Translations under genes and position numbers: made by a program
Origin: Chitinispirillum sp.
Lineage (GTDB): Bacteria; Fibrobacterota; Chitinivibrionia; Chitinivibrionales; Chitinispirillaceae
DNA length: 64,000 nt
Direction: 5' to 3'
Assembly (NCBI GenBank): GCA_007115975.1
Contig: SKJJ01000017.1
Coordinates: 1-64,000, forward strand
The notes under the pieces: generated by a model
What the model was told of the DNA's origin: nothing
Databases searched by the model: none
The model's input: the letters and a program-made list of their open reading frames with translations, nothing else
Shown here: piece after piece, positions 3,288-50,752 of the stretch
Layout: each line of letters opens with the position of its first letter
How positions within the stretch are numbered: the first letter of the stretch is position 1

Positions 3288-4919
3288 CTAACTTTCCCGT
3301 ATCACATTTTTCACCTGTGGAATAAGTGATGGAGCCACACTTAAGGTGCCGATCCCACACTCTGCAAGTGTAGAGATGGTGTCAAACCGTGCAGCCAGCT
3401 CACCACACACAGAAACCGGTATACCACCTGAATATTTAACCACATGATCAATCATTTTTATGATAGCAGGGTGATTTTCTACGAAATACTGGGTAACGCT
3501 GCTGTTCTCCCGCCCTACAGCCATCGTATATTGCGTCAAATCATTGGTGCCGATACTTATAAAATCCACATAGGGTAAAAACTGCTCCACACACAGCGCT
3601 GCTGCCGGAGTCTCAATCATTGCCCCAAGCATTATCTCCTTTGAGCCCCCTGAGCCGGTAAGATCATCAAAAATCTCTCTCACCAGCCCCATCTCCTGAT
3701 GAAACGTCACCATCGGAACCAAAATGCGAATATCGAAGTTTTCCGAAAGCCTAATCAGCGCATTTAACTGGGTATATAAAAGCTCCGGAAATTCAAGCAG
3801 AAACCGCACCCCCCTTCTGCCCAGAAAAGAATCCTCTCCCGATGAATAGTTAAGGTAGGTCAACTTCTTATCCCCGCCCACATCAAGAAGACGGATCGTT
3901 GTAGGCTTGCCCTGTGCCGGTTCAATCGTGTTTTGTATTTCATCGATAAGCTCCTGTGTTGACGGAGGCAGTTTGCGGGAGAGATAGATGTTTTCTATTC
4001 TAAACAGCCCAATCCCCTCAGCACCGTTTTTCAGTGCTACCTCAACATCATCCCGGCAACTCACATTAGCAAGAACCGCAACACTCTGCCCGTTTTTGCG
4101 TACCGAAATTTCACTGCAACACCTGCGACTGTTTAACAGATAGACCTTCCGTTCTGCAATTCTCTTCTCAAAGCAGCGTCTGGTCTTCTCCTGAGGATTT
4201 ATCACCAGGTTACCCGTTACACAATCAAGCAGCAAAAAGTCTCTGTTTTTAACGATATTTAACACATCTGCAATTTTGCTTAATGCGGGTACACCTATCT
4301 CTTTTGTCAAAAGAGCCGCATGGCTTGCAGGACCGCCAAATTCGGTTACGATTCCCCTGGTTGATTTTCTGGAGAGAAAAACCGTATCCGACGGCAATAA
4401 GCGGCGTGCAACAATAATACTCCCCGCAGGCAGGTGCTCCAGTGTATGGGCATGAATCCCGATGAGCGCCCCCAAAATCTTGCGACTCAAATCCACTATA
4501 TCATCAGCCTTGCTTGCCATCTGCTCATCATTCAACTGCCTGAACCGTAACTCCCATTTTCTAAATACCCTTTTTATTATCTGCTCCGCATTTATAAGTT
4601 CTGTCTCAAGCTCCGCCTTTATCTCCTCAACAAGGAGCTTATCATGCAGAATAGCTAGCTGTGCCCGAAATATACCCGCCATGTGAGAATTGAGCTCTTT
4701 TTCAATTCGCTGCGCCGAACAGTGCAGATCATCAGAGACCTCCCTTAGTGCCATCTCTATTCTTTTTAACTCCTCCTTAAGAGCCTTCTGGGTGATAGTG
4801 TACAGCTCATGATCTCTTAACAAAATATCGGTATAGATTACAGCCCTCCCCATTGCAAGGCCACTTGAGATAGTTGTCCCGTATACGATTCTTTCCTCTT
4901 GTCTTGTTGTCCACATCAT
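3288..4919 (-). CDS. Phosphoenolpyruvate-protein phosphotransferase (PTS enzyme I paralogue 1)
   Basis: Enzyme I takes phosphate from PEP onto a histidine and passes it to HPr. At 543 residues it is shorter than usual (about 570). The phospho-histidine loop reads GGPASHAALL instead of the usual GGxTSHxAI. The PEP site is present: GIGLFRIE, LDVGGDK, LGRRGVR, MIETPAA, SIGTNDLTQY and the catalytic cysteine in SVCGELA. The chain ends right after the IPQVKNVIRES segment, so the C-terminal helical tail of ordinary enzyme I is missing. There is no GAF domain, so it is not PtsP. No HPr or EII gene is nearby; treY follows it. It probably acts in a regulatory phosphorelay rather than sugar uptake (inference). 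A second paralogue lies at 31.3-33.0 kb. Confidence 0.88.
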   Translation of the reverse strand: MMWTTRQEERIVYGTTISSGLAMGRAVIYTDILLRDHELYTITQKALKEELKRIEMALREVSDDLHCSAQRIEKELNSHMAGIFRAQLAILHDKLLVEEIKAELETELINAEQIIKRVFRKWELRFRQLNDEQMASKADDIVDLSRKILGALIGIHAHTLEHLPAGSIIVARRLLPSDTVFLSRKSTRGIVTEFGGPASHAALLTKEIGVPALSKIADVLNIVKNRDFLLLDCVTGNLVINPQEKTRRCFEKRIAERKVYLLNSRRCCSEISVRKNGQSVAVLANVSCRDDVEVALKNGAEGIGLFRIENIYLSRKLPPSTQELIDEIQNTIEPAQGKPTTIRLLDVGGDKKLTYLNYSSGEDSFLGRRGVRFLLEFPELLYTQLNALIRLSENFDIRILVPMVTFHQEMGLVREIFDDLTGSGGSKEIMLGAMIETPAAALCVEQFLPYVDFISIGTNDLTQYTMAVGRENSSVTQYFVENHPAIIKMIDHVVKYSGGIPVSVCGELAARFDTISTLAECGIGTLSVAPSLIPQVKNVIRES

Positions 4920-13117: not shown

Positions 13118-14437
13118 TCAAGTGGTAACAGGAAAAACGTCTTGTTCTGATTGAATTTTAGCAGTTCGTTCCCGTTCCATTTCAGCAAATACAAGCAAAA
13201 GCCCACCAGCCGCAAACAGTACCAGAACTGAAGACATCCCCATGCGGGAAGCCATATTTGAGCTTACACCTGCTTTTCTCATAATCACTCCAACACCCCC
13301 TACAAGCACGGGGCCCAGTACTGCAAAACGGCCAACAATGTTATAGAATCCAAAATACTCCGATGCTTTTTCCGGTGGGATTAATTTTCCAAAATAGGAC
13401 CTGCTTAACGCCTGAATTCCTCCCTGAGCGAGGCCGGTAAGACAGGCCAAAATCACAAAATGGATATCGGTTCGCAGAAAAATGGTCCCAAAACCAGTAA
13501 CAGCAATGTAGATAACAATCCCGAAAAGTATCATTTTCTGCGCCCCGAAACGAAAGGCCAATTGCCCGAAAACAAGAGCAGAAGGGAATGCAACAAACTG
13601 AACCAGAAGAAGGGCCAGCATAAGGGTTGAAGCGGAAAAACCGATTGAAACACCGAAATCAATAGCCATTCTGATAAAAGTGTTAAGACCATCGATATAA
13701 AGCCAGTATGCACATATAAAGAGCAATAACACCCTGTTAGTCCGTATGTCAAAAGCCGTTTTTTTGAGACTTTTAACGGTGTGTGATGCAAGGGAGGAAA
13801 ACGGGGGCCTTGCTGAATACACCTTCTCTTTAACATAGAGAAATATGGGGATGGAGAAGATCAGCCACCAGGCAGCGACAGTAAGAAAGGAAACCTTTAC
13901 AGCGGATATTTCGTTTTCGAGCCCGAAAAACTGCGGCCGTATGGTCATCAATACATTAACCGCAAACAGCAAACCGCACCCAAGGTACCCACACGCAAAA
14001 CCCATTGACGATACATAGTCGATAGTACTCCTGTCGGTAACATCGAGTAACAGTGAGTTATAAAACAGATCAGAGCAGGAAAAGCCAATGTTGCCCAGAA
14101 TAAAAATGGAAAGCGCTGCCAACCAGTTCCCCTGAGAAACAAAGTAGAGTGCTGTTGTAGAGGCAGTACCAACTACCATAAAAAGAAAAAGAAAACGTTT
14201 CTTTCCCCCACCGGCATCAGCAACAGCCCCCATAAAGAGGGAGAAAAAGGCGATTAAAAGCCCGGCGATGGTACTTCCAACCCCCAGTCTCAAAGTGCTT
14301 GTCGTTGGCTCAACATCAGAGCACCAGTAGTTGTTGAAAAAAACAGGAAAAAAACCGGCAAGCACCGTAACAGCAAAAGCGGAATTAGCCCAGTCATAAA
14401 GGCACCATGAATATATCGCCTTTTTTTGGCTATTCAC
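13118..14437 (-). CDS. MFS transporter of the UMF1/Atg22-like family
   Basis: A 439-residue, about 12-helix permease. The N-terminal YSWCLYDWANSAFAVTVLA is the signature of the UMF1 (vacuole effluxer Atg22-like) family. LAQGGIQALSRSYFGKLIPP near 337-356 is the second conserved block. Yeast Atg22 exports amino acids from the vacuole; bacterial substrates are unknown. It starts with GTG inside a GTGA overlap with the stop of the secreted amidotransferase-like gene upstream. The two are therefore translationally coupled, which suggests a shared substrate such as an amide or amino acid (inference). Confidence 0.88.
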   Translation of the reverse strand: MNSQKKAIYSWCLYDWANSAFAVTVLAGFFPVFFNNYWCSDVEPTTSTLRLGVGSTIAGLLIAFFSLFMGAVADAGGGKKRFLFLFMVVGTASTTALYFVSQGNWLAALSIFILGNIGFSCSDLFYNSLLLDVTDRSTIDYVSSMGFACGYLGCGLLFAVNVLMTIRPQFFGLENEISAVKVSFLTVAAWWLIFSIPIFLYVKEKVYSARPPFSSLASHTVKSLKKTAFDIRTNRVLLLFICAYWLYIDGLNTFIRMAIDFGVSIGFSASTLMLALLLVQFVAFPSALVFGQLAFRFGAQKMILFGIVIYIAVTGFGTIFLRTDIHFVILACLTGLAQGGIQALSRSYFGKLIPPEKASEYFGFYNIVGRFAVLGPVLVGGVGVIMRKAGVSSNMASRMGMSSVLVLFAAGGLLLVFAEMERERTAKIQSEQDVFPVTT

Positions 14438-15696
14438 GTTTTGCGTTCCTTTTTTTCAGCAGCAGGAAAGAGTACATTGTTAAGAATGAGCCTGTAGCCG
14501 GGAGAGTTTTTGTGGAGCTCAAGTTTGGTTGGTTTATCGCCAACAGCATGGGCGTAATCCTCAGGATCGTGCCCACCCAGATAGGCAAATTGCCCATTTC
14601 CAACCACGCCATGGATGTAATTTACCATTTTGGTCCCCGGAACCTCACCCAAAATTACGACATCGTTCTTAATCACATCCCTGTTAAAAGTGGTAAGAAG
14701 GCCAAAATATCCCTTTATAGTTGAGCTGTGGTTCTGAACCAGCATAGTGGGAACGGGATCCAGTTTTGCGCTGAAATCAAAAAGGTGAAAATCCTCTGCT
14801 TCTTTTCGCAGTGGAGTGTTCACCTGATTTACATCGATGTTACCAAATGAGGTAGTATAGGGATCGGTAGTAATCTCAAAGTTTTCAAAAGCCATGCAGT
14901 TATCAAAGTGTAGTTTTTCGCGGTAATGGGGATCTATCCCGTCCCCGTCGTACACCTCTGCAACGATATCGGTACCAAGAGCGGCAAGAGCAATTTCAAG
15001 AGTATTAGTTGCACTACACATTGCAAAAAGAAAGCCCCCCGCTTCTACAAATTGCCTGATCTTCAGGGCTACAGTTTTTTTTAGGTCACTTACCTTTTTA
15101 AAGCCCAGTTCAGTTGCGAGCGTTTCAAGCTCCAATCTCTGTCTCTGGTACCAGGGAGCATTGCTGAAACTTCGGTGGAACTTACTGTACTGTCCGGTGA
15201 AGTCTTCGTGATGAAGATGGAGCCAGTCATAGTTGTCAAGTTTTCCGGTCAAAACCTTTTTGTCATAAACCTCCTGGTATGGTATCTCTGCATAGGTAAG
15301 GGCCAGTGTCACAGCATCATCCCAGGGCAGCATTCCCGGTGGAGTATACACGGCAATCTCAGGGGCTGTTTCAAGGACAACTTTTTCCATGTTGTTCTCA
15401 GCAATGATGTGCTGAATGGCGTTCCACTTTTCTTGAGAAACAGTGGTAAAATCTACTCCTGCAACATGTAGATCAATACTAAAACGCTCTCCCCCGGGTA
15501 CATAAAAGGAACCATCCCTGTAATTGAGAAGCCAATACACTCTCTGTCCGGCACTGAGCATTTTGTAAACAATACCGTATGCCTTAAGGTGATCGCTCTG
15601 CACCTTATCCATTGGAATTAACATCCCGGCATCCGCCTGTACTAACAGTAAACCTGTAAAAAGAAGCAGCGCGGTTCTAAAGAGTGTCGCTTTCAT
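14434..15696 (-). CDS. Secreted protein of the group commonly labelled 'asparagine synthetase B', class-I-amidotransferase-like
   Basis: A 420-residue protein with a clear N-terminal signal peptide (TLFRTALLLFTGLLLVQADAG), so it is exported. The body has MLIPMDKVQSDHLKAYGI and YWLLNYRDGSF, which I recall as typical of a Bacteroidetes family often annotated as asparagine synthetase B. No N-terminal Cys2 nucleophile or PP-loop typical of true AsnB is visible. A segment FVEAGGFLFAMCSATNTLEIAL resembles the nucleophile elbow of class I glutamine amidotransferase folds, with a Cys in place. Its periplasmic location argues against asparagine synthesis. It is coupled by overlap to a UMF1-type transporter. 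Confidence 0.6.
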   Translation of the reverse strand: MKATLFRTALLLFTGLLLVQADAGMLIPMDKVQSDHLKAYGIVYKMLSAGQRVYWLLNYRDGSFYVPGGERFSIDLHVAGVDFTTVSQEKWNAIQHIIAENNMEKVVLETAPEIAVYTPPGMLPWDDAVTLALTYAEIPYQEVYDKKVLTGKLDNYDWLHLHHEDFTGQYSKFHRSFSNAPWYQRQRLELETLATELGFKKVSDLKKTVALKIRQFVEAGGFLFAMCSATNTLEIALAALGTDIVAEVYDGDGIDPHYREKLHFDNCMAFENFEITTDPYTTSFGNIDVNQVNTPLRKEAEDFHLFDFSAKLDPVPTMLVQNHSSTIKGYFGLLTTFNRDVIKNDVVILGEVPGTKMVNYIHGVVGNGQFAYLGGHDPEDYAHAVGDKPTKLELHKNSPGYRLILNNVLFPAAEKKERKT

Positions 15697-31277: not shown

Positions 31278-33029
31278 TTATAGCAGATCGTCCACTGATG
31301 GATATTTCTCGATAGCATCTCCAAGCAGTTTCTGATTGAGAGATGTTAGCCAGTTGGCCATATTTTTGGTGGAATCGATGGCATCGATATGCGAGATATG
31401 CTCCATGGCTTCAACCAGACTTATTTTCGATACGAGTTCTTTTATGATAGGGATATTTCTTGGAATGACACTGAAACGGCGCAGTCCTAAACCAATCAGT
31501 AAGAGGGTGTGGTGAGGGTTTCCTGCCATTTCACCGCATATTGACAGTGGCATACCGTTGTCATTGGCAGTTTTTATTGTATTTCGTATAATTCTCAGAA
31601 ACGCTGGTTCAATGGGGTTATACAGGTAGTTTACTTTTGAGTTGTTGCGATCAGCGGCACTTAAATATTGTATTAAATCATTGGTACCGATCGAAGCGAA
31701 ATCTATCTCCTTTAAAAAGGTGTTCATCTCCAAAACAGATAGTGGTACCTCAAAGAGCACTCCACACTTAGGCATTGGCAGATTCAAACCTCGTGCAACT
31801 CCACTGATTATCTTTTTGGCTTCAGTCCACTCCTGCAAGGTTGTTACCATTGGGACCATAATCGAATAGTTGTAGCCTTTACCGGCTTTGAGTATGGCGC
31901 TGACCTGAGTTACAAGGATATCTTTTCTTTCCAGAAATATTCGGATAGCCCTCCACCCCATAAAGGGGTTAAATTCCTGGGGCATTTCAAAAAACTGGGG
32001 TATTTTATCTCCTCCGATATCCATCAGGCGAATCACACATGGTTTCCCCTTGCTCTTTTCGAAAATATCAGTATAGTACATCATTTGAACATCTTCGGGG
32101 GGCATCTCTTTTCTGTTAGAAAGGAGGTACTCAGTTCTCACGAGCCCGATCCCATCGGCGCCATTGTCTATTGCTTCATCGACATCATCAGGGAGTGAAA
32201 TATTAGCAAGAATGTCCAGTTTTACACCGTCTTTGGTGTAAACCGGCTTGCGCCATCTGGTTTTTAGTCTTTCTAATTTTTCTTCCGTATCGTGGGGGCG
32301 TTTGTAGTGATTCAAGAGAGTTGCAGTGGGACGAACAAACACGGTTCCGGCAGTTGCATCAACCAACACCTGGTCACCGGGATGGATCTTGTCGGTTATA
32401 TTGTGTACACCGGAGACCACCGGTATTGAATATGAACGGGCCAAAATAGCAGCATGAGAGGTCTTTCCACCACTGGTGGTAAGAACAGCCTGAATTTTTG
32501 ATTTGTCATAAGAGAGGATATCTGTTGGTGTAAATGTCCTCAGTACCACCAACACCACCGGCTCTATAAAGGAGCGGGCTCTGCCGTTGTCCTGGTGTAT
32601 GCATGAGACAAGTTTCTCGCACACCTCAACCATATCGCTGCTTCTCTCTTTAAAATAGGAGGTCCCAGCAGATTCAAAGCGGGTGATAAAATCTTCCGAT
32701 ACAGTTCGTATTGCACTCTCCAGATCATAAAGTCTGGTGGCAATAGTCTCTACGACCTGTCCAATAAAAGCAGGATCATCGAGAATGTGCTCATAAATAT
32801 TTAATATTGAGGAATCGAGTGTCGTTTCGGCGCCTTGATTGATCAGCTGCCGATAGTCCTTCTTGGCCTCTTCCCTGATCTCACCGAAACGCATGATTTC
32901 ATTACCGACTTCCTGTCGGGTAATATTGACCGTAGAGACGTTTTTGACAGCACGTCCGACAAAATAGGCTTTACCAACACCCCACCCTGAAACAACCGAT
33001 ATACCACTTAGTTCATTGTTTTTAGTCAT
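31278..33029 (-). CDS. Phosphoenolpyruvate-protein phosphotransferase (PTS enzyme I paralogue 2)
   Basis: About 583 residues, a full-length enzyme I. The phospho-His loop is GGKTSHAAILAR. PEP-site blocks GIGLVRTEYLL, LMDIGGDK, PFMGWRAIR, FEVPLSVL and SIGTNDLIQYLSAADRNN are all present, with the catalytic Cys in SICGEMAGN, and the C-terminal helical tail is retained. No GAF or HPr domain is attached. An ATG at 33029 overlaps the glgP stop as ATGA, so translation is coupled to glgP; a start at 33044 is also possible. Known enzyme I/HPr links to glycogen phosphorylase in other bacteria make regulation of glycogen breakdown a reasonable inference. HPr is not in the window. Confidence 0.92.
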   Translation of the reverse strand: MTKNNELSGISVVSGWGVGKAYFVGRAVKNVSTVNITRQEVGNEIMRFGEIREEAKKDYRQLINQGAETTLDSSILNIYEHILDDPAFIGQVVETIATRLYDLESAIRTVSEDFITRFESAGTSYFKERSSDMVEVCEKLVSCIHQDNGRARSFIEPVVLVVLRTFTPTDILSYDKSKIQAVLTTSGGKTSHAAILARSYSIPVVSGVHNITDKIHPGDQVLVDATAGTVFVRPTATLLNHYKRPHDTEEKLERLKTRWRKPVYTKDGVKLDILANISLPDDVDEAIDNGADGIGLVRTEYLLSNRKEMPPEDVQMMYYTDIFEKSKGKPCVIRLMDIGGDKIPQFFEMPQEFNPFMGWRAIRIFLERKDILVTQVSAILKAGKGYNYSIMVPMVTTLQEWTEAKKIISGVARGLNLPMPKCGVLFEVPLSVLEMNTFLKEIDFASIGTNDLIQYLSAADRNNSKVNYLYNPIEPAFLRIIRNTIKTANDNGMPLSICGEMAGNPHHTLLLIGLGLRRFSVIPRNIPIIKELVSKISLVEAMEHISHIDAIDSTKNMANWLTSLNQKLLGDAIEKYPSVDDLL

Positions 33030-35434
33030 GGCATAATTTTCCATACAGACCGAGCGTACTCCCTTAGGGCACGGTCACTTGAAAACCAACCGCTCCTTGC
33101 TGTATTTATGAGACTTTTTTGGAACCATCCGAAGGAGTCTCTGTAAAGGTGATCAATCTGCTTCTGTTTTTCCAGGTAGTCTCTAAAATCAAGCAAGACG
33201 AATTGTCTGTCGGAATCACAAATCGAGGAGATCAGCGGGTATATTGCATGTCCATCGGACAATGATTGCAAGAAGTTATCAATAAAGGAGAATAGTTTTT
33301 TAAGATCTTCATCTACATTAAGAACATCAGATGGGTTGTAGTTTTGGAGACGTTCCAACTCCTGAACACTTTTGCCAAAAACAAATATGTTGTCTTCCCC
33401 GATCTTTTCCACCATCTCTATATTTGAACCACTGCGGCTTGCAATTGTAATGGCTCCATTAAGTGCAAATTTCATATTGAATGTGCCAGAAGGTTCAAAT
33501 ACCGGATTTGATATCTGCTCCGAAAGGTCTGCTGCAGGAATAATCTTTTCTGCCCAGCTCATACCAAAATCAGGTATGAACACCACCTTCATTTCATCAT
33601 TTACATCGGGATCGTTGTTGATCAGTTCAGCAACAAGATTTATCAGATGAATGGTCTGTTTTGCGAGAAAATCGGAAGGGGATGCCTTTCCTCCAAATAT
33701 GTGTACCCGGGGAGTGACCATTTTCTCCCCCTCTTTAACCTTTAAATAGCGGTGCAGAACATTTAAAAGGTGAAGATCCTGCCTTCGGCCAGAATGAAAG
33801 TTTCTGATCTGAACATCAAAAAGCATCTCATCATTTATAGAAACACCTAAATTATCTTTTAATATTCCTGCAAGTTTCCTTTTAGCCGCTCTTCTCAAAT
33901 CCGCAAGTTGCTCAATTTTTTTGCGATTATCGGCTATTTTTTCCAAACGTATCAGTTGTTCGGAATCACTGATCCACGAATCTCCTATACTTTTAGTTAA
34001 AAAGTCGGCGAGGGGTTTATTTACGTTTAACAACCAGCGGCGGTGAGCCACACCATTTGTCTTGCAATTAAAACGATGATCAAAATATTTAGAAAAATGG
34101 GGAAACACCTTTTGGGTGAGAATATCAGTCTGGGCTTTGGATACGCCATTCACCGAAAATGAACCGGTAACGGCCAAATCGGCAAACCTGATCATTTTCA
34201 CCTCTCCTTCTTCAATAAGTGACAACTCTCTGAGCAGAGAGCTGTCGTGGCCGTACTTTGCTATTATTTCATCAAGATGAGCCTGATTAATGTCGAAAAT
34301 GATCTGCATAATTCTTGGCAGCACCTGACCAAGCTTATACACCGGCCAGATTTCCAGATTATCCCTGTTTACAGCAGAACTACTGTATGCAAAAACGTTT
34401 CTGGTTATGTTCCAGGCTTTTTCCCAAGGGACATTTTCATTGTCTATAAGAATTCGCAATAACTCAGGAATGGCAAGTGCACACCTGCTGCCGTTAATCT
34501 GTATTACCATGTTTTGGTCAATATTTTCAAGTACACCGTGATTGGACTTGTAACGTCTGACAATATCCTGCAGAGATGAACTGACAAAAAAGTACTGTTG
34601 TCTCAATCTTAACTCATGGGCCCGTCGTACATCTTCCTCAGGAAAAAGCACTTTGGTTATCTGTCCGGATCTGCTGTTCTCATCACAAGCCCTTACATAG
34701 TCACCATGATTGATATAATCTGGAAAAAACTCTTCATCGGCTCTTCCAGACCATAGCCGCAAGGTGTTTACCGTACTGTTGCAATAACCAGCAATAGGCA
34801 CATCATAGGGGATGGCATGAACCATCTCTTCCCCATTCCACTGGTAAGGCCCTAGCAGATTTGATTGATCTATCGGGTGGCAGTTACCGGCAAACTGTAC
34901 CATGCAGGAGTATTCCGGTCGTACAATTTCCCAGGGATGGCCACGATGTTGCCAGTCATAGGGTTTTTCAAACTGTGCACCATTTACAATCTGTTGTTTG
35001 AACTGTCCATAATCATAACGCAAGCCATACCCGGTAACCGGCAGATTCAGTGATGCCGCTGATTCAAGTAAACAGGCAGCAGTTCTTGCCTTTCCGTTGT
35101 TACCGAGTTCGAAATCATCTTCCTGCTTAAGCAGATTTTCAATTGAAAAACCGAGGGATTCCAGAGCCGACTCGATAGGATTATTAATTCCGAGATTAAC
35201 GATATTCTGCTGAAGACTCTTGCCGAAGATGTACTCCATGGAAAGGTAATAGACTCTTCTTGGAGCTTTTAGTTTATACTGCTTTTGGGTTTCGATCCAG
35301 TGATCGACAAGCTCACTCCTGATAGCATACGACAAGGCCATGTATTTGTCATACAGTGTGGCCGTAGATTCATCTTTTGCCAGAAAGTAGCGAAGATACC
35401 TGTAAAAAGTATCGCGAAGATTTTTACTGTTCAT
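33026..35434 (-). CDS. glgP: Glycogen/starch phosphorylase
   Basis: Releases glucose-1-phosphate from alpha-1,4-glucan ends, using pyridoxal phosphate. About 802 residues: YYLSMEYIFGKSLQQNIVNLG near the N-terminus, the sugar site block around KTNGVAHRRWLL, VHIFGGKASPSD, VVFIPDFGMSWAEKIIPAAD, and the PLP lysine block SGTFNMKFALNGAITI. The block after the PLP lysine reads ASRSGSNIEM, where most family members have GTLDGANVEI, so this copy is somewhat divergent. I use the ATG at 35434; a TTG at 35476 is the alternative. Coupled to the enzyme I gene by overlap. Confidence 0.94.
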   Translation of the reverse strand: MNSKNLRDTFYRYLRYFLAKDESTATLYDKYMALSYAIRSELVDHWIETQKQYKLKAPRRVYYLSMEYIFGKSLQQNIVNLGINNPIESALESLGFSIENLLKQEDDFELGNNGKARTAACLLESAASLNLPVTGYGLRYDYGQFKQQIVNGAQFEKPYDWQHRGHPWEIVRPEYSCMVQFAGNCHPIDQSNLLGPYQWNGEEMVHAIPYDVPIAGYCNSTVNTLRLWSGRADEEFFPDYINHGDYVRACDENSRSGQITKVLFPEEDVRRAHELRLRQQYFFVSSSLQDIVRRYKSNHGVLENIDQNMVIQINGSRCALAIPELLRILIDNENVPWEKAWNITRNVFAYSSSAVNRDNLEIWPVYKLGQVLPRIMQIIFDINQAHLDEIIAKYGHDSSLLRELSLIEEGEVKMIRFADLAVTGSFSVNGVSKAQTDILTQKVFPHFSKYFDHRFNCKTNGVAHRRWLLNVNKPLADFLTKSIGDSWISDSEQLIRLEKIADNRKKIEQLADLRRAAKRKLAGILKDNLGVSINDEMLFDVQIRNFHSGRRQDLHLLNVLHRYLKVKEGEKMVTPRVHIFGGKASPSDFLAKQTIHLINLVAELINNDPDVNDEMKVVFIPDFGMSWAEKIIPAADLSEQISNPVFEPSGTFNMKFALNGAITIASRSGSNIEMVEKIGEDNIFVFGKSVQELERLQNYNPSDVLNVDEDLKKLFSFIDNFLQSLSDGHAIYPLISSICDSDRQFVLLDFRDYLEKQKQIDHLYRDSFGWFQKSLINTARSGWFSSDRALREYARSVWKIMP

Positions 35435-35683
35435 AGAAATTGAGAATCCGTTGCAGATATGAAGAATATGGAACAATAAAATTACATTCCATCTTCCACA
35501 GAGATCATCATGTTAAAACAAAACAAGTTGGACATAAAAAACAGATCTAAAATAGATTATAACTATAATGCACCCTATTTGGTATAAAAAAATACTATTA
35601 AACGCAATTATTTTAAAGTTATCGGACAAAAAATAGAAAAAGTCATCCAAAATCCATAAATCTGTTCTTTTACACATAAACTC

Positions 35684-44271: not shown

Positions 44272-47085
44272 CTAAAAAAGATAGGTCAGGTGCAACCCGC
44301 CCATCTTCATTGTGTAGTTTTCTCCGGAACCGATAAATTCATCATAACTCTTCTCGTACCGTCCCTTTAACGACAACGCCATTCGGTGAGAGATAGTATA
44401 ACGAACTACTGATTCGCCTCCAAGAAATTTGGCATATACAAAATCATTCCACTTCTGAAGCGTATGGTTGTAATCCCGATCTCTTTTCCAGCTATACTCG
44501 GCCCCAAGAGTCAGATTCAACTTACCGGGAAGAACGGTGAGTGTGAACCAGTCCCCTATTCTGCAACTGATACCCTGAAGCGAATCTCTGTTAACAGTTC
44601 TTGTGGCTACACGAACTTGCAATCTGTTTCTGAAAAGATTGTCATGCCTGTAGTTTAATGAGCCACTTACCTGGTGCTGTACGCCATCTCCAAGGTCCAA
44701 GAGCGAGGAGTCAGGATAGTTGGTCATATCATTATCATGAAGAAACTGATACCGAAGACTATATGAGAGCCCCCCATCAAAGCTCTGACGTCCTTCAAGG
44801 CTGAAAAGATTCCCTATATCTGCAACAGTATAGGTTGAGTCAAAAAACAGTACCTGATCATCATCATTGGTATATGACATTCTCTGGGTTCTTTTGGAGT
44901 TGCGTAGATGCATATCATAACTGACGGTAAATTCCGGGAGATGCGGCTCTATCTGATAGGTGGTTCTTAATCTTACGATGTTCCTGTCGAGAGGGTTTGA
45001 TGATTTCATGGTACGTTCATACTGATACTCGGCAGCTGCGGCAAGGTTTTCCGAGAAGTTTTTATCGATACTGTACCCTAGAATGCGTTTGTCAGGTTCA
45101 AGATAGGGGTTTCCGGCTGAAAAATAGTCCGCAGAGATTTCCATATAACTTAGACCCATACGATAACCCTGAACGAAGGCCAAAACGCCGGAATGGAATG
45201 AAAAATGCGAGCTGAAATCATCACTAGTTCTTAAAAGACTGAAGACTTCAGAGTATGCGGCCCTGATTTCAGGTTTGTACCAGGCGATATCATCCCGTTG
45301 ATTATCTGGTACGGTATCATGGTTTCCAAGGTCGATATTTGCAAAGACCTCAAGAGCTCCATCCATCAACCACAGCCGTCCCTCTATACTCCCGGATTGG
45401 GCACTCACCGGCTCCGGTGCATCAGGATCACTTATCGGTGTTCTAAAAAGTGGCATATCAATCTGATCACGTGAAATTATTCCACGGGTTGAAAACAAAA
45501 AGTTGCGCACAGGCCTTACGCTTCCCGAAAGCACATAGGTTACCTGCTGACGAACAGACATTCCGGAGTCTACCACATCGTTGTAAATATCAAGAGAGTG
45601 CTCTCCGACATCACGGGAATGTTCAGATTCCCCGGCAGAGAGATTGTACTCAAACCTCTTAATGCCCCTCCCCATATCACCGCGGCCCCCCTTAAGGCGC
45701 AAACCGGTCATGTGTCTTCCTGAAATTGACGTTTCCGATCCACTTTCATAGAAGTCACCCACAACAAGGGAATAATCCCCATAGTCAAAAGAGAGATTAA
45801 AAAGGTTTTTTCGCAGGTAATTGTTGGGTTTGAGCCATTGATTTCCATGCATATCAATCAAAAGGTTTACATCGACACCCCGCTGCTTACCACTGGCGAA
45901 AATTTGAATTTCGGGCTGTAAACCAGCATAGAGTTGATCACTTTGCTCCCCTAAATACCGGCTTTGATAGATAACAGTGTCTCTGTAGGTCACTGTTGAA
46001 TCAATCACCATACCCGACCTGAAGTCATACTCGTATTCAACACCCCTTGTGCCAAGAGGGTGCTTAAGTGACCGTGGTCTGTAATAGCTGAATCCGGTTG
46101 TTATATTACCGATGAAGCTTCCTGATGTAACCTGATCACGAGTTGTTTCTACAGTTATTCCCGGTTCAAAGGTCTCTATATCGATCGAAATAGCACGTTG
46201 AAAGGAGCTTATGTCATACGATCGGGCCATCTCAAGCAAGTTATCTTGGGAAATACGCCGATAATCATTTGAATTTGAATAGATCAGCCTTCTGAGATCA
46301 CGTGCTCTCCCAGCGGTTGCTATAACTCCGGTGCTGTTTTTGGTTACATCAGTTTCATCCAGTGAAAAAACAGCATTTTCCGAAACGATTGCCCCGTTTG
46401 AGTTGTTCTGAATCACACCACCATTAAAAAAAGCCTGTGAATAATCCATTAAAAAGAGTGCTGTTTCATTGTCTTCAAGCTTTATGCTGTTTGCAGAAAG
46501 GAGGGCACCTTGCTGCGAGAGGATACCAATCTTATGACCATTACGGATTGATGACTCACTTATGTCAACTACGGAGTTGGTTATTGATAGAGCGTGCATC
46601 TCATTACTTTTAAAAGTGGTACGGTTAATGATGAGTGAGCCGTTCTCAACAACTACCCCCCTCCTTGAGTAGCGAATCTCACAATGTTCAAACAGTGAAG
46701 TAGTCCTTGAACGACAGTAGATCATATCCCAGTCAGAGGGTTGGGGGTCAGGTGAGGCAGAACTGAAAACTATCGGCTCCGATACAGTTCCCTGTGCACG
46801 AATCTCACCGAAAACAGTAATTCCAACCCCTTCTGAAAAATGGATAACCGTACCCGGACTAAACTCCAGCACCTGCCCTGCAGGGACAACGATGTCTCCG
46901 GTAATGAGAATAGGTCCATCCTCCTGCCTGAACATTCCATACATAATCCCGGATTCAATAATGGTATTGTAATTGAGTGCCAAACTCTTGTCATCATCAT
47001 ATTCACTCTGTGCCGGCAAAAACTGAAAACTAAACAGCACTACAATAAGTATTGGTGTGTTGATCCTTTTAATTATGAACCTCAC
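44272..47085 (-). CDS. Exported beta-helix plus outer-membrane beta-barrel protein
   Basis: A 937-residue protein with a signal peptide (TPILIVVLFSFQFLPAQSE). Residues about 55-260 are short repeated strands like a right-handed parallel beta-helix: VVPAGQVLEFSPGTVIHFSE, then SLIINRTTFKSNEMHALSIT, then GILSQQGALLSANSIKLEDN. From about 330 to the end the pattern is alternating strands with aromatic girdles and short turns, ending HLTYLF. The terminal Phe is the hallmark of outer-membrane barrels. The start is GTG with AGGAGAG upstream. It follows the FecR-domain gene by 27 bases. It is probably a surface assembly or export pore with a periplasmic or surface beta-helix. No family name is recognised. 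Confidence 0.72.
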   Translation of the reverse strand: MRFIIKRINTPILIVVLFSFQFLPAQSEYDDDKSLALNYNTIIESGIMYGMFRQEDGPILITGDIVVPAGQVLEFSPGTVIHFSEGVGITVFGEIRAQGTVSEPIVFSSASPDPQPSDWDMIYCRSRTTSLFEHCEIRYSRRGVVVENGSLIINRTTFKSNEMHALSITNSVVDISESSIRNGHKIGILSQQGALLSANSIKLEDNETALFLMDYSQAFFNGGVIQNNSNGAIVSENAVFSLDETDVTKNSTGVIATAGRARDLRRLIYSNSNDYRRISQDNLLEMARSYDISSFQRAISIDIETFEPGITVETTRDQVTSGSFIGNITTGFSYYRPRSLKHPLGTRGVEYEYDFRSGMVIDSTVTYRDTVIYQSRYLGEQSDQLYAGLQPEIQIFASGKQRGVDVNLLIDMHGNQWLKPNNYLRKNLFNLSFDYGDYSLVVGDFYESGSETSISGRHMTGLRLKGGRGDMGRGIKRFEYNLSAGESEHSRDVGEHSLDIYNDVVDSGMSVRQQVTYVLSGSVRPVRNFLFSTRGIISRDQIDMPLFRTPISDPDAPEPVSAQSGSIEGRLWLMDGALEVFANIDLGNHDTVPDNQRDDIAWYKPEIRAAYSEVFSLLRTSDDFSSHFSFHSGVLAFVQGYRMGLSYMEISADYFSAGNPYLEPDKRILGYSIDKNFSENLAAAAEYQYERTMKSSNPLDRNIVRLRTTYQIEPHLPEFTVSYDMHLRNSKRTQRMSYTNDDDQVLFFDSTYTVADIGNLFSLEGRQSFDGGLSYSLRYQFLHDNDMTNYPDSSLLDLGDGVQHQVSGSLNYRHDNLFRNRLQVRVATRTVNRDSLQGISCRIGDWFTLTVLPGKLNLTLGAEYSWKRDRDYNHTLQKWNDFVYAKFLGGESVVRYTISHRMALSLKGRYEKSYDEFIGSGENYTMKMGGLHLTYLF

Positions 47086-47112
47086 GGGACAATCTCTCCT
47101 TTACAGAGTTTT

Positions 47113-48852
47113 TTAACGAACATTTATCTTGAATTGCCTTGTTTTTATGACATCGTTTACATCCCGGACTTGAACAGTTATCTGGTTTGGCTTATCTCTG
47201 TCCAGTTCAACATCAAACTCAAGAAAGTCAACATGCGACAAGTTCCTGCGGCTTACGGGTGATCCTATGGCACTGTTTGAAACAGTTATCTCCCTGATAA
47301 GTGCAGGGTTTTGATCCGGAAGATTTTCTATGGATAGTTCTATTGTATATCGTGGTGTAAACCCACTGGCAGAAGGGGCATAGGGTGGAATATGAACAAC
47401 AGCGTCCCCTGCCGGCCGCCTCATTCTTATTTGCCACACAGCAGACTCCAAATACGCCACGGTACGGGCAAGGCGCTGTGAACGATTTCCAGCCCTATCC
47501 TCAGCATAAACAACATAATCATGAATACCATCCAGAAGATTCAGATAGAATGGAGAATTGGGCGGTCCGCTCTCTCTCTCTCTTACCCCATTCATTTCAG
47601 TGAAAAAGGTAATTTCATCGTCAGGTGTTCTGTCAATAACTGTAAAAACAAGCCTGCGCTGCCTGGAGACTTCGGGAAGCGTTCCCTGAATAATCGGCGC
47701 CTGGGTGTCTGGTGGACGCCGATAGACAACGGTTCTCGTTTCAGTACGGCTGCGTTCACCGGAAATAATTGTAAATTCAAGGTGCACCTCACCCTCTTCT
47801 TCAGGAATCATATGCACCCCTGAAAACAGGCCATTTGCAGCCACCTGAACTCTGCGCCCGTCAATACTTAATTCTGCAGAAGCTGGCTGTAATTCTCCCC
47901 TGTACTGAATTCTGGTTGTGGTAAACTCCTGCCCCTCTGCAGGACTTTGAATGACAAAATTGAATTCAGGAGTGTACCGTACAGTCCGCACTGCTCTTAC
48001 TGTTCGACTCTGATAGTTGAATTCAAATTCGAGCAGATGCTCCCCCTCCTCATCCGGCAGAGGAACATGTCCCCTGAATGATCCGTCCGAGGCGACAACC
48101 ATTCTGATTCCTGAAACCAGAACGTCAGCACCTGGATTAGTAGTACCAGTAATGGAGACCAATGTAGATGAAACTGTCTGCCCCTCTGCTGGAGCACTGA
48201 TCGCTCGATGGATCTCAACATCAACACCAGCCTTAGCCTGGTCGTCGGTTATTTCGTCGTCGGTTATTTCGTCGATATCCTCCACAACAACACCTGTCTG
48301 TTGATCTTCAATAAGAGCCATCTGTCCATCAGTGAGTTCCACTCCCTGTGTTGCCCCAGTCGGTTTTACATAAACAACACCCTCATAGACCCTTATAACT
48401 GTTGTATTGCTTCCCACATTAAAACCTACTTTGGTACCTCTTATACCAGCAGTAGCAGTGGGGGTTTCGAAGTCGAATGAGGAGTTGGCATTAATAAGCT
48501 TTCTGATATTGGCCATTACATTCCCATTAAGAATTCTTACCGAGGTGTTCTGTACATCTTCATCGTGGCTTAATAGCGACATTTCCAGAGTTGTATTTTC
48601 CCCCATTCTAAGGATTGACCCGTCTGAAAGCTCAAGTTCAACCTGCGATTCCACAAAGGTTCTTAATGCATCTTTTTCTCTCAGGGGCATTCCAGGACGT
48701 ACTTCTCTCCAGTTGGAACCTTCTCCTCTTCGAATCTGAACAGTGCCGATTATGCTGCTGACAGAGCTTGTTCGTTGCGCCGTCTGGGAATAGCCGTAAA
48801 GGACAAGAGTTGCAATAATAAAGAGCATACGCTGTGGAAAACGCATTTTCAT
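47113..48852 (-). CDS. Exported FecR-domain protein with Ig-like/bacterial-surface repeats
   Basis: A 579-residue protein. I use the ATG at 48852 because AAAAGGAG lies eight bases upstream and the signal peptide (MLFIIATLVLYGYSQ) then begins near residue 9. The FecR domain spans about 25-160, with SVSSIIGTVQIRRGEGSNWR and the hallmark TPTATAGIRGTKVGFNV. An acidic linker has a 15-base tandem repeat (DEITDDEITDD). Then come at least two Ig-like beta-sandwich units (SAPAEGQTVSSTLVSITGTT; QSPAEGQEFTTTRIQYRGEL) and C-terminal modules with APIIQGTLPEVSRQRRL and VYAEDRAGNRSQ. There is no membrane anchor, so this is not an anti-sigma FecR but a secreted scaffold. The barrel gene follows. Confidence 0.82.
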   Translation of the reverse strand: MKMRFPQRMLFIIATLVLYGYSQTAQRTSSVSSIIGTVQIRRGEGSNWREVRPGMPLREKDALRTFVESQVELELSDGSILRMGENTTLEMSLLSHDEDVQNTSVRILNGNVMANIRKLINANSSFDFETPTATAGIRGTKVGFNVGSNTTVIRVYEGVVYVKPTGATQGVELTDGQMALIEDQQTGVVVEDIDEITDDEITDDQAKAGVDVEIHRAISAPAEGQTVSSTLVSITGTTNPGADVLVSGIRMVVASDGSFRGHVPLPDEEGEHLLEFEFNYQSRTVRAVRTVRYTPEFNFVIQSPAEGQEFTTTRIQYRGELQPASAELSIDGRRVQVAANGLFSGVHMIPEEEGEVHLEFTIISGERSRTETRTVVYRRPPDTQAPIIQGTLPEVSRQRRLVFTVIDRTPDDEITFFTEMNGVRERESGPPNSPFYLNLLDGIHDYVVYAEDRAGNRSQRLARTVAYLESAVWQIRMRRPAGDAVVHIPPYAPSASGFTPRYTIELSIENLPDQNPALIREITVSNSAIGSPVSRRNLSHVDFLEFDVELDRDKPNQITVQVRDVNDVIKTRQFKINVR

Positions 48853-48986
48853 AGAACAGTCTCCTTTTGCGAGCGAGGGGGTCATATATTCTTTGTTCAT
48901 TTTTTCCTACTCAATATTTATTTTATATACATATACGGATACAGTCAATTAATTTAATTCAATTACCGTTCTAAAGGAGAGATTTT

Positions 48987-49400
48987 CTGTCGGTTCAGAT
49001 CTACCATGACTATACTGGTTTCCCCATGCCGGAACAAGCCTTACAAGAAGTTGCCCAACAGATGGTAACGGCAGAAAATGTTCCTTCAGCTCAAAACACA
49101 TCAGTGATTTTATGTTCTGACTACAAAATCAGAAAACTAAATGCTCAATACCGGGGAATTAATAAAGCTACAGATGTCCTGTCATTCTGTTTTAACGATC
49201 CGGATTTTTTAGGCGAGATCTATATATCTTTGCAGCGCGCTGACATTCAGTCCAGAAGATATGGTGTAACGTATGAACAGGAGGTGAGGAGACTGTTTGT
49301 GCATGGTTTTTTACATTTACTAGGGTATTGTCATTATGTTGCTGATGAACGAGAAATAATGGAGACAAAGGAGCGCAGATATCTTGGCGACTCTTTTTGA
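48987..49400 (+). CDS. ybeY: Endoribonuclease YbeY, probable CTG start
   Basis: YbeY is a zinc RNase for 16S rRNA 3'-end maturation and ribosome quality control. The metal motif HGFLHLLGYCH is intact, and NAQYRGINKATDVLSF is the family's conserved centre. From the first ATG (49026) the N-terminal strand is missing. Reading upstream gives SVQIYHDYTGFPM, which restores it. An in-frame TAA at 48972 and the lack of ATG/GTG/TTG leave a CTG at 48987, with AAAGGAGAG five bases before it. corC follows, as in the ybeZ-ybeY-corC order of many bacteria. Confidence 0.9.
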   Translation: MSVQIYHDYTGFPMPEQALQEVAQQMVTAENVPSAQNTSVILCSDYKIRKLNAQYRGINKATDVLSFCFNDPDFLGEIYISLQRADIQSRRYGVTYEQEVRRLFVHGFLHLLGYCHYVADEREIMETKERRYLGDSF

Positions 49401-49456
49401 GTGGACACAGGTTTACCAAACATAGCAGATAGGCAACATACAGAGGAGGTATTTTT

Positions 49457-50752
49457 TTGGGTAATTATCCAACAGACTCGTTTTTTATAGCAAATTTGAT
49501 AATCAGTTTTATTCTTTCGGTATTTTTTTCAGTGGTAAAAATTGTTTTCTCATCCGTTGATCGTACCAAAGCATCAGAAGACGAGCACCTTCGTTTCTAC
49601 GCCTCACGAATAGAAAAGGTACTAAAGAAGAGCCAGATTCTCAGCGGTAATGTTGCATTTGGGAAGATTATATCCACCACCACTTTTGGCATAGTGTGTT
49701 TTAGCTATTTTGGAAAGCTTTTCCCCGAAAATACATTCCTTGAACAATTTTCATGGTCATCTCTTTTCTCTGTAATCTTCCTTAGCTTGTTTGCATATCA
49801 TATACCCCGAGCATTTGCATTGCGTTGGTATAGAAACTATGTAGCGGTTTGCTACTATTTCTATCGTCTTTTAAGTCTGTTTTTGATACCGTTTGTATCC
49901 GTTTTTGTAGCAATTTACAACGTGCTTCTCAAAGTAGTCCAATATGATGAGAAACTCTCATTTTTGACCGATGAGGAGAAGTTACGGATCACCTCCAAGG
50001 ATGCATCTGAAGCCCTTAACAAAGAGGAGCGCGAGATGATCAGAAGTATCTTTGACCTAAGTGACACCAATGTGGATGAAATAATGGTGCCAAGGATCGA
50101 TATAAAGGGTATTAATATGAAATCAGATATACAGTCGGTTCTGAAAATTATCCGTGAAGAGGGCCATTCCAGAATTCCGGTCTATAATGAATCAATAGAT
50201 CAGATCACCGGTGTTTTGTATGCAAAAGATATCCTGAGCTGGATTTCTGAACACAATTTTGAAACGTGGGATATGGTCAATATGATAAAAAAGCCCCATT
50301 TTGTACCGATGGGCAAAAAAATCAATGACCTTATGAAAGAGTTTAAAGTAAAGCACATTCACCTTGCCATAGTTGTCGATGAGTATGGAGGTACAGCGGG
50401 TATGGTTACCATGGAAGATATTCTTGAAGAAATTGTGGGAGAGATCCAGGATGAATATGACATGGAAGAGAAACCAATTGTGCAAATCTCCCCCAATGTA
50501 TATCTGGTCGATCCACTTGTAGACCTTCACGACTTCAATGAAGAACTTGAGCTGAACCTGGAGCTTGATGATGTAGATTACAACACTCTTGGCGGGCTTG
50601 TGTACCATGAATATGGCGATATACCTCAGGAGAGTGTTCAGTTCGATTACAACGGATTGCGCTTCACTGTACTTGAAATGGATAATCAACGTATAGAAAA
50701 GCTAAAAGTTGAAATACTGCAGGGGCCTGAGTCTGAACAGAACTCGTTCTGA
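49457..50752 (+). CDS. CNNM/CorC-family transporter with CBS pair
   Basis: A 431-residue membrane protein. The N-terminal 160 residues have three to four hydrophobic helices of the CNNM (DUF21) type. Then come a CBS pair (DEIMVPRIDIKGI, EEGHSRIPVYNESIDQITGV, HIHLAIVVDEYGGTAGMVTM) and the C-terminal CorC_HlyC domain (DYNTLGGLVYHEYGDIPQ). Such proteins are linked to Mg2+/Co2+ efflux. The start is TTG with AGAGGAGG nearby. ybeY lies upstream. Confidence 0.92.
   Translation: MGNYPTDSFFIANLIISFILSVFFSVVKIVFSSVDRTKASEDEHLRFYASRIEKVLKKSQILSGNVAFGKIISTTTFGIVCFSYFGKLFPENTFLEQFSWSSLFSVIFLSLFAYHIPRAFALRWYRNYVAVCYYFYRLLSLFLIPFVSVFVAIYNVLLKVVQYDEKLSFLTDEEKLRITSKDASEALNKEEREMIRSIFDLSDTNVDEIMVPRIDIKGINMKSDIQSVLKIIREEGHSRIPVYNESIDQITGVLYAKDILSWISEHNFETWDMVNMIKKPHFVPMGKKINDLMKEFKVKHIHLAIVVDEYGGTAGMVTMEDILEEIVGEIQDEYDMEEKPIVQISPNVYLVDPLVDLHDFNEELELNLELDDVDYNTLGGLVYHEYGDIPQESVQFDYNGLRFTVLEMDNQRIEKLKVEILQGPESEQNSF

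Follow-up and report, generated by a model that had tools for sequence, protein, structure and literature searches.

MtrB/PioB (6r2q) is an outer-membrane barrel of about 26 strands, and the gene for its dedicated partner in the periplasm lies alongside; LptD likewise forms a 26-strand barrel, which carries an N-terminal periplasmic beta domain and has LptE as its partner. In the alginate system, the outer-membrane barrel AlgE works with AlgG, a right-handed beta-helix protein; AlgE has 18 strands and is a separate protein from AlgG. SprA, the T9SS translocon, is a very large barrel that serves giant, C-terminally tagged surface proteins. FecR domains also occur in exported proteins with no part in iron signaling, such as Leptospira Lsa33 and LipL45 and the FecR-LysM proteins of COG4254 (PMC3444417, PMC5192318).

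The outer-membrane machinery of Fibrobacterota is poorly annotated. This phylum includes rumen cellulose degraders. The mechanism of attachment-dependent cellulose and chitin degradation in Fibrobacterota is debated (PMC6851124). Here we analyzed a window of 64,000 nucleotides from Chitinispirillum sp. (contig SKJJ01000017.1), in which an initial annotation had paired an exported FecR protein (here F) with a beta-helix/barrel protein (here B) and had known of no described system with this pair. We found no publication that describes one either, and nothing in the papers searched that joins Fibrobacter with FecR or FecR with a beta-barrel. What is new here is a conserved, phylum-wide outer-membrane unit whose barrel has no Pfam family.

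Results

The F-B locus

Both genes lie on the minus strand. F (47113-48852) encodes an exported FecR-Ig protein of 579 residues, and B (44272-47085) encodes an exported, predicted outer-membrane protein of 937 residues with a beta-helix and a barrel. The likely start of F is the ATG at 48852, which has AAGGAG ahead of it; the longer listed open reading frame begins at 48900. The 27-bp gap between the genes (47086-47112) contains AAGGAGAG as ribosome-binding site shortly 5' of the GTG start codon of B, and the B protein ends in GGLHLTYLF. The intergenic region between F and the divergent ybeY gene (48853-49025) holds a single consensus-like -35/-10 pair on the minus strand (48948-48920), a weak candidate since promoter-like matches in this region are no more numerous than in shuffled sequences.

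The conserved divergent neighbors on the plus strand (49026-50752) are ybeY (49026-49400) and a gene for a CorC/GldE-like CBS protein (49457-50752). ybeY and corC are a landmark of F-B across the phylum, and we do not propose them as components of the pair. The top NCBIfam model for the CorC-family protein is gliding-motility GldE, with 243 bits against a cut-off of 376. Elsewhere in the window are genes for two enzyme-I-like PEP-utilizing proteins with the PTS EI domain set (3288-4919 and 31278-33044, minus strand), the second of which overlaps a glycogen phosphorylase gene (33026-35476).

F is an exported FecR-Ig protein

F consists of a signal peptide (residues ~1-23), a FecR solenoid (29-192), a disordered linker (195-211) and four Ig-like domains (217-578). 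The FecR domain (PF04773) scored 57 bits against a gathering cut-off of 24 (E 2e-15) and was matched in 32 of 34 F homologues; Pfam also recognized Ig-type domains, including Glucodextran_B. AlphaFold2 modeled F with a pLDDT of 91 from an alignment of 34 sequences, and Foldseek searches with this model returned chiefly Ig tandems. F contains no cysteine and therefore has neither a lipobox nor a haem motif. We found no domain other than FecR and Ig, and no membrane anchor past the signal peptide. Pfam and NCBIfam detected no Por-tail or CHU_C match in F that would mark a C-terminal sorting domain of T9SS cargo, and the LapA retention module (NF033682) reached 32.9 bits, below its threshold of 50. 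The description of F in the initial annotation, as an exported FecR protein with Ig-like repeats and no anchor, thus agrees with the open reading frame, the Pfam matches and the lack of cysteine. As a FecR anti-sigma regulator F was rejected, for it has an N-terminal signal peptide followed by FecR and Ig domains only.

B is predicted to form a barrel of about 26 strands

The N-terminal side of B is a right-handed beta-helix (residues ~41-277; 46255-46965, minus strand), which matched Pfam Beta_helix with an E value of 9e-11; NosD and Beta_helix are also the Pfam matches on the helix part of B homologues. The barrel region matched no Pfam family in 38 B homologues, save for stray weak porin-like matches. 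A sequence-profile search of solved structures gave no match for B and weak matches only for F. The AlphaFold2 model of B (pLDDT 83, pTM 0.58, 38-sequence alignment) places after the helix 26 amphipathic strands between residues 323 and 936 by DSSP, a count that treats residues 346-368 as a variable hairpin within the first loop because several homologues miss that stretch. The predicted barrel (residues ~323-937; 44275-46119, minus strand) ends in the C-terminal signal GLHLTYLF, whose last residue, F937, is nearly invariant among the 38 homologues.

Long gaps (mean 15.8) and short gaps (mean 3.7) follow one another in turn between the strands, the pattern expected of extracellular loops and periplasmic turns, and the in/out alternation exceeds that of shuffled sequences (z = 4.1). 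By this topology the beta-helix and the C-terminus would both be periplasmic, except if the helix passes through the barrel. The top PDB matches of the model in Foldseek were outer-membrane barrels, led by MtrB (E 1e-11, TM 0.55 by target length), with SlpA, FimD and AlgE next, LptD lower and TonB-type barrels also present; the superpositions were loose (rmsd mostly 14-22), so these matches give a fold class and not a family. B thus has a signal peptide, an even number of amphipathic strands, a C-terminal aromatic residue and barrel-like fold matches. AlphaFold2, strand alternation and Foldseek agree that B is probably an outer-membrane barrel of about 26 strands.

Four assignments of B to known barrels were rejected. 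A porin-cytochrome MtrB is contradicted by the absence of a MtrB/PioB Pfam match and by the cysteine content of the pair (none in F, three in B). B matched neither LptD nor LptD_2, and a separate LptD_2 is present in 161 of 168 genomes, including that of the window (G000:C4). No NCBIfam match to SprA/Sov was found in B, and a separate SprA (TIGR04189) is encoded in 168 of 168 genomes. B also lacks the 12-strand domain of a type Va autotransporter.

F and B are linked across Fibrobacterota

The B family was detected in 81 of 168 Fibrobacterota genomes with a single sequence, beta-helix-driven matches included, and in 111 of 168 with a profile. In the family of the window, full-length relatives of F and B adjoin one another in four more genomes. 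Among 57 fetched B loci with readable upstream sequence, F lies immediately upstream of B on the same strand in 55, and the F stop and B start overlap by 1 or 4 bp in most of these. The exceptions are L088, the second B of genome G166, and L113, where a small script-called open reading frame lies between F and B. This co-occurrence is far beyond chance. The ybeY-corC site, usually divergent, recurs in families f1, f2, f4-f7, f9, f13 and f14, and thus the site of F-B looks ancestral. A contig scan with B as single protein gave no match; one with an order-level alignment recovered only Chitinispirillaceae/Chitinivibrionales MAGs and one contig titled Fibrobacteres, patterns that are lineage-specific and carry no information on other phyla.

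The initial annotation had reported a 27-base gap followed by a 937-residue exported protein with a beta-helix and a barrel ending in Phe, details that the open reading frames, Pfam and AlphaFold2 bear out. Its reading depended on a barrel in the second protein, which the model of B predicts with about 26 strands, and on recurrence of the pair elsewhere, which the 55 linked loci document.

F-B was duplicated as a unit and carries an optional module

From genome numbers and gene content, we infer that f9/g29 corresponds to Fibrobacteraceae/Fibrobacter. Fibrobacter-like g29 genomes contain a second F-B pair adjoining the gene for endonuclease IV. Seven tested copies of this kind form one clade in each tree, with support of 0.998 for F and 0.999 for B, and patristic distances of F and B correlate with r = 0.94; together, these results indicate that F-B was duplicated as a unit. 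The pair can also be lost. In G004, a genome of the same genus as the window, F-B is cleanly absent between ybeY and the gene for UGP (UDP-sugar pyrophosphorylase-like), and the order FapA-STAS-CorC-YbeY-UGP-GreA-LarE is intact (L154, G004:C3:200000-214000). The reduced genomes of g4 and g11 retain F alone at the ybeY site, without B. Short F-type FecR proteins with no barrel partner are also encoded beside type IV/II pseudopilin-like genes in g4 (L056, L062).

B relatives of ~760-805 residues match only the barrel in profile searches, and many of the Fibrobacter copies consist of the barrel without a helix. At five loci of one g29 lineage (L192-194, L197, L198), B has no helix and F has no middle Ig domains. 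The helix is also lost in L195, where F is full-length, and half gone in L196; the B open reading frames of L192-L198 comprise 760-784 residues, save for L196 with 941. Among 61 pairs, both modules were present in 54, and none combined a helix with a short F. This distribution is suggestive, and no proof, of contact between the beta-helix and the middle Ig domains of F, because the five barrel-only/short-F cases belong to one lineage. The beta-helix, a title feature of the initial annotation, is present in B, but barrel-only relatives exist. It is an optional module on a core of FecR, the last Ig domains and the barrel.

F-type genes adjoin genes for giant secreted proteins

At nine of nine loci in the family of the window and in f4-f7, the gene for a giant protein is directly followed by a second F-type gene. 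These giants resemble one another in their tails; Pfam, applied to one of them, recognized Ig-like domains and, at the end, a FlgD/CHU_C-like (T9SS) tail. This conserved two-gene unit, in which a secreted giant of 1300-2400+ residues with a FlgD/T9SS-like tail immediately precedes an F-type FecR protein, stands at L045:317-8798, L049, L050, L051 and L166-L170 and adjoins mazG in several genomes. A giant also precedes the endonuclease-IV pair of g29 wherever the contig reaches, and the single example that was scanned carries cadherin repeats; a small SUI1-type gene usually lies between the giant and F. In G139, F-B is followed by a gene for a 1543-residue exported protein, and in G018-G021 a large protein (1220-1259 residues), of fibro-slime type where tested, is encoded convergently beside B.

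No giant adjoins F-B in the genome of the window. A 2259-residue secreted giant with InlB-type-like repeats and a FlgD-like tail is encoded elsewhere in this genome (G000:C234:2144-8920, L171), and it is possible that this protein is a client of F-B. A second class of giants that co-occurs with F-B was set aside, because its members are general T9SS-tail proteins that lie far from F-B and are confounded by phylogeny.

An exported protein of ~430 residues is encoded directly downstream of B in f4-f7, within about 5 bp at several f5-f7 loci. A ~420-residue exported member of this family, which is common to much of the phylum, is encoded in the window away from F-B (14434-15696, minus strand). 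Relatives end in KKEKKT, and the homologue tested (L079) had no Pfam or NCBIfam match. As a third component of F-B this protein was rejected, since it is found in genomes without F-B and lies elsewhere in the genome of the window.

Discussion

Phylum-wide linkage, overlapping genes, joint duplication and the barrel model together give good support to F and B as a dedicated, conserved outer-membrane two-protein unit. As to function, we tentatively favor, at somewhat less than an even chance, a role for B as a conduit or anchor of giant surface proteins at the outer membrane, with F as its partner. BAM machinery would fold B into the outer membrane as a barrel of ~26 strands, with the N-terminal beta-helix remaining in the periplasm or inside the lumen. 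F would be exported by Sec, reside in the periplasm and dock on B. As docking parts we propose the FecR solenoid and the C-terminal Ig domains of F, which are retained in the most reduced pairs. F could then act as an adaptor that passes on very large secreted surface proteins or holds them at B. We infer the physical contact between F and B, the periplasmic placement of F and the role of the pair; large surface proteins enter this proposal because F-type genes sit directly beside the genes of giants.

The linkage at 55 of 57 loci, the recurrent ybeY-corC site, the presence of the family in 111 of 168 genomes, the joint duplication, the ~26-strand barrel, the parallel loss of helix and Ig domains and the giants as neighbors all speak for the conduit or anchor. 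Against it, the pair in the window has no giant neighbor, the SUI1 gene usually intervenes in Fibrobacter, and a T9SS translocon is already present for such cargo, with SprA in every one of the 168 genomes. F also occurs without B in g4 and g11, the B of L088 has no adjacent F, the barrel-only/short-F pairs are a single lineage, and L195 and L196 lost helix sequence next to a full-length F.

Alternatively, B could be a channel for solutes or polysaccharides, either a wide porin or an exopolysaccharide exporter, with the beta-helix as a periplasmic vestibule and F as a periplasmic structural subunit; this would resemble AlgE with AlgG/AlgK, here as one polypeptide plus partner. AlgE, MtrB, FimD and TonB-type barrels are among the best Foldseek matches of B, beta-helix domains (Pfam NosD/Beta_helix) are frequent in carbohydrate-handling proteins, and absence from some genera would suit a dispensable transport function. 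However, no conserved gene for sugar-polymer synthesis was recognized near F-B, where ybeY and corC are the recurrent neighbors, the beta-helix is dispensable, and the large neighbor in G018-G021 is of fibro-slime type where tested and no sugar enzyme. We consider a channel rather unlikely. The same barrel could instead serve as a structural tether, modeled on Deinococcus SlpA or OmpM-type proteins, with B as an abundant barrel and F as an envelope spacer that fastens peptidoglycan or a surface layer to the outer membrane. SlpA-type complexes rank second and third among the structural matches of B, and COG4254 proteins join FecR to the peptidoglycan-binding LysM domain (PMC5192318). However, neither F nor B has a Pfam match to LysM, SLH, OmpA-type or any other peptidoglycan-binding domain, and the clean absence of F-B from G004, in the same genus, means that it is no essential tether, which leaves this explanation quite unlikely.

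The order of signal peptide, beta-helix and C-terminal barrel is that of a classical autotransporter, in which the helix would exit through B's own barrel as a passenger and be decorated by F at the surface. Yet the barrel has ~26 strands and not 12, none of the 38 homologues matched an autotransporter Pfam family, and barrel-only B is kept together with F, which shows that the barrel does not exist for the sake of the helix; we regard this route as improbable. A sensor role, with F reading the state of B to control a sigma factor, has the FecR domain of F in its favor, but apart from the signal peptide F has no transmembrane segment, and it lacks a cytoplasmic anti-sigma part and a C-terminal signaling domain; its neighbors are B, ybeY and corC, with no sigma factor or TonB receptor adjacent. 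FecR signaling is largely refuted by this architecture, and we assign it a negligible chance.

Returning to the conduit or anchor, a bolder version would make F-B a phylum-specific export or anchoring device beside the T9SS, in which the barrel and its FecR-Ig adaptor display giant cadherin- or Ig-rich adhesins for attachment to insoluble polymers, cellulose and chitin among them; we think this unlikely. The initial annotation had proposed a surface-display or envelope-adhesion apparatus. A conserved outer-membrane two-protein unit is what stands of this proposal, and display or adhesion may be its role, with some support from the linkage of F-type genes to giants. If F-B does display giant adhesins, it would fill a gap in what is known of adhesion in a model that can be cultivated. 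The pair also provides a concrete non-signaling setting for the secreted FecR domain, which is widespread and little studied.

Compared with described systems, MtrB/PioB has the nearest solved fold to B, with a similar strand number and a partner encoded alongside, but the structural score is low (TM 0.55 by target length, rmsd 14). LptD-LptE resembles B in its 26 strands, N-terminal periplasmic beta domain and partner, yet B is dispensable. Like SprA, B is a very large barrel, from which it differs in being dispensable and ~940 residues long. The alginate system shares with F-B the combination of an outer-membrane barrel and a right-handed beta-helix, but alginate-type genes were not recognized near F-B. 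F is, like Lsa33, LipL45 and the COG4254 proteins, an exported FecR protein outside iron signaling; it scores far under the cut-offs of both Lsa33 and LipL45, and it is set apart from them by its Ig domains and a near-constant barrel neighbor.
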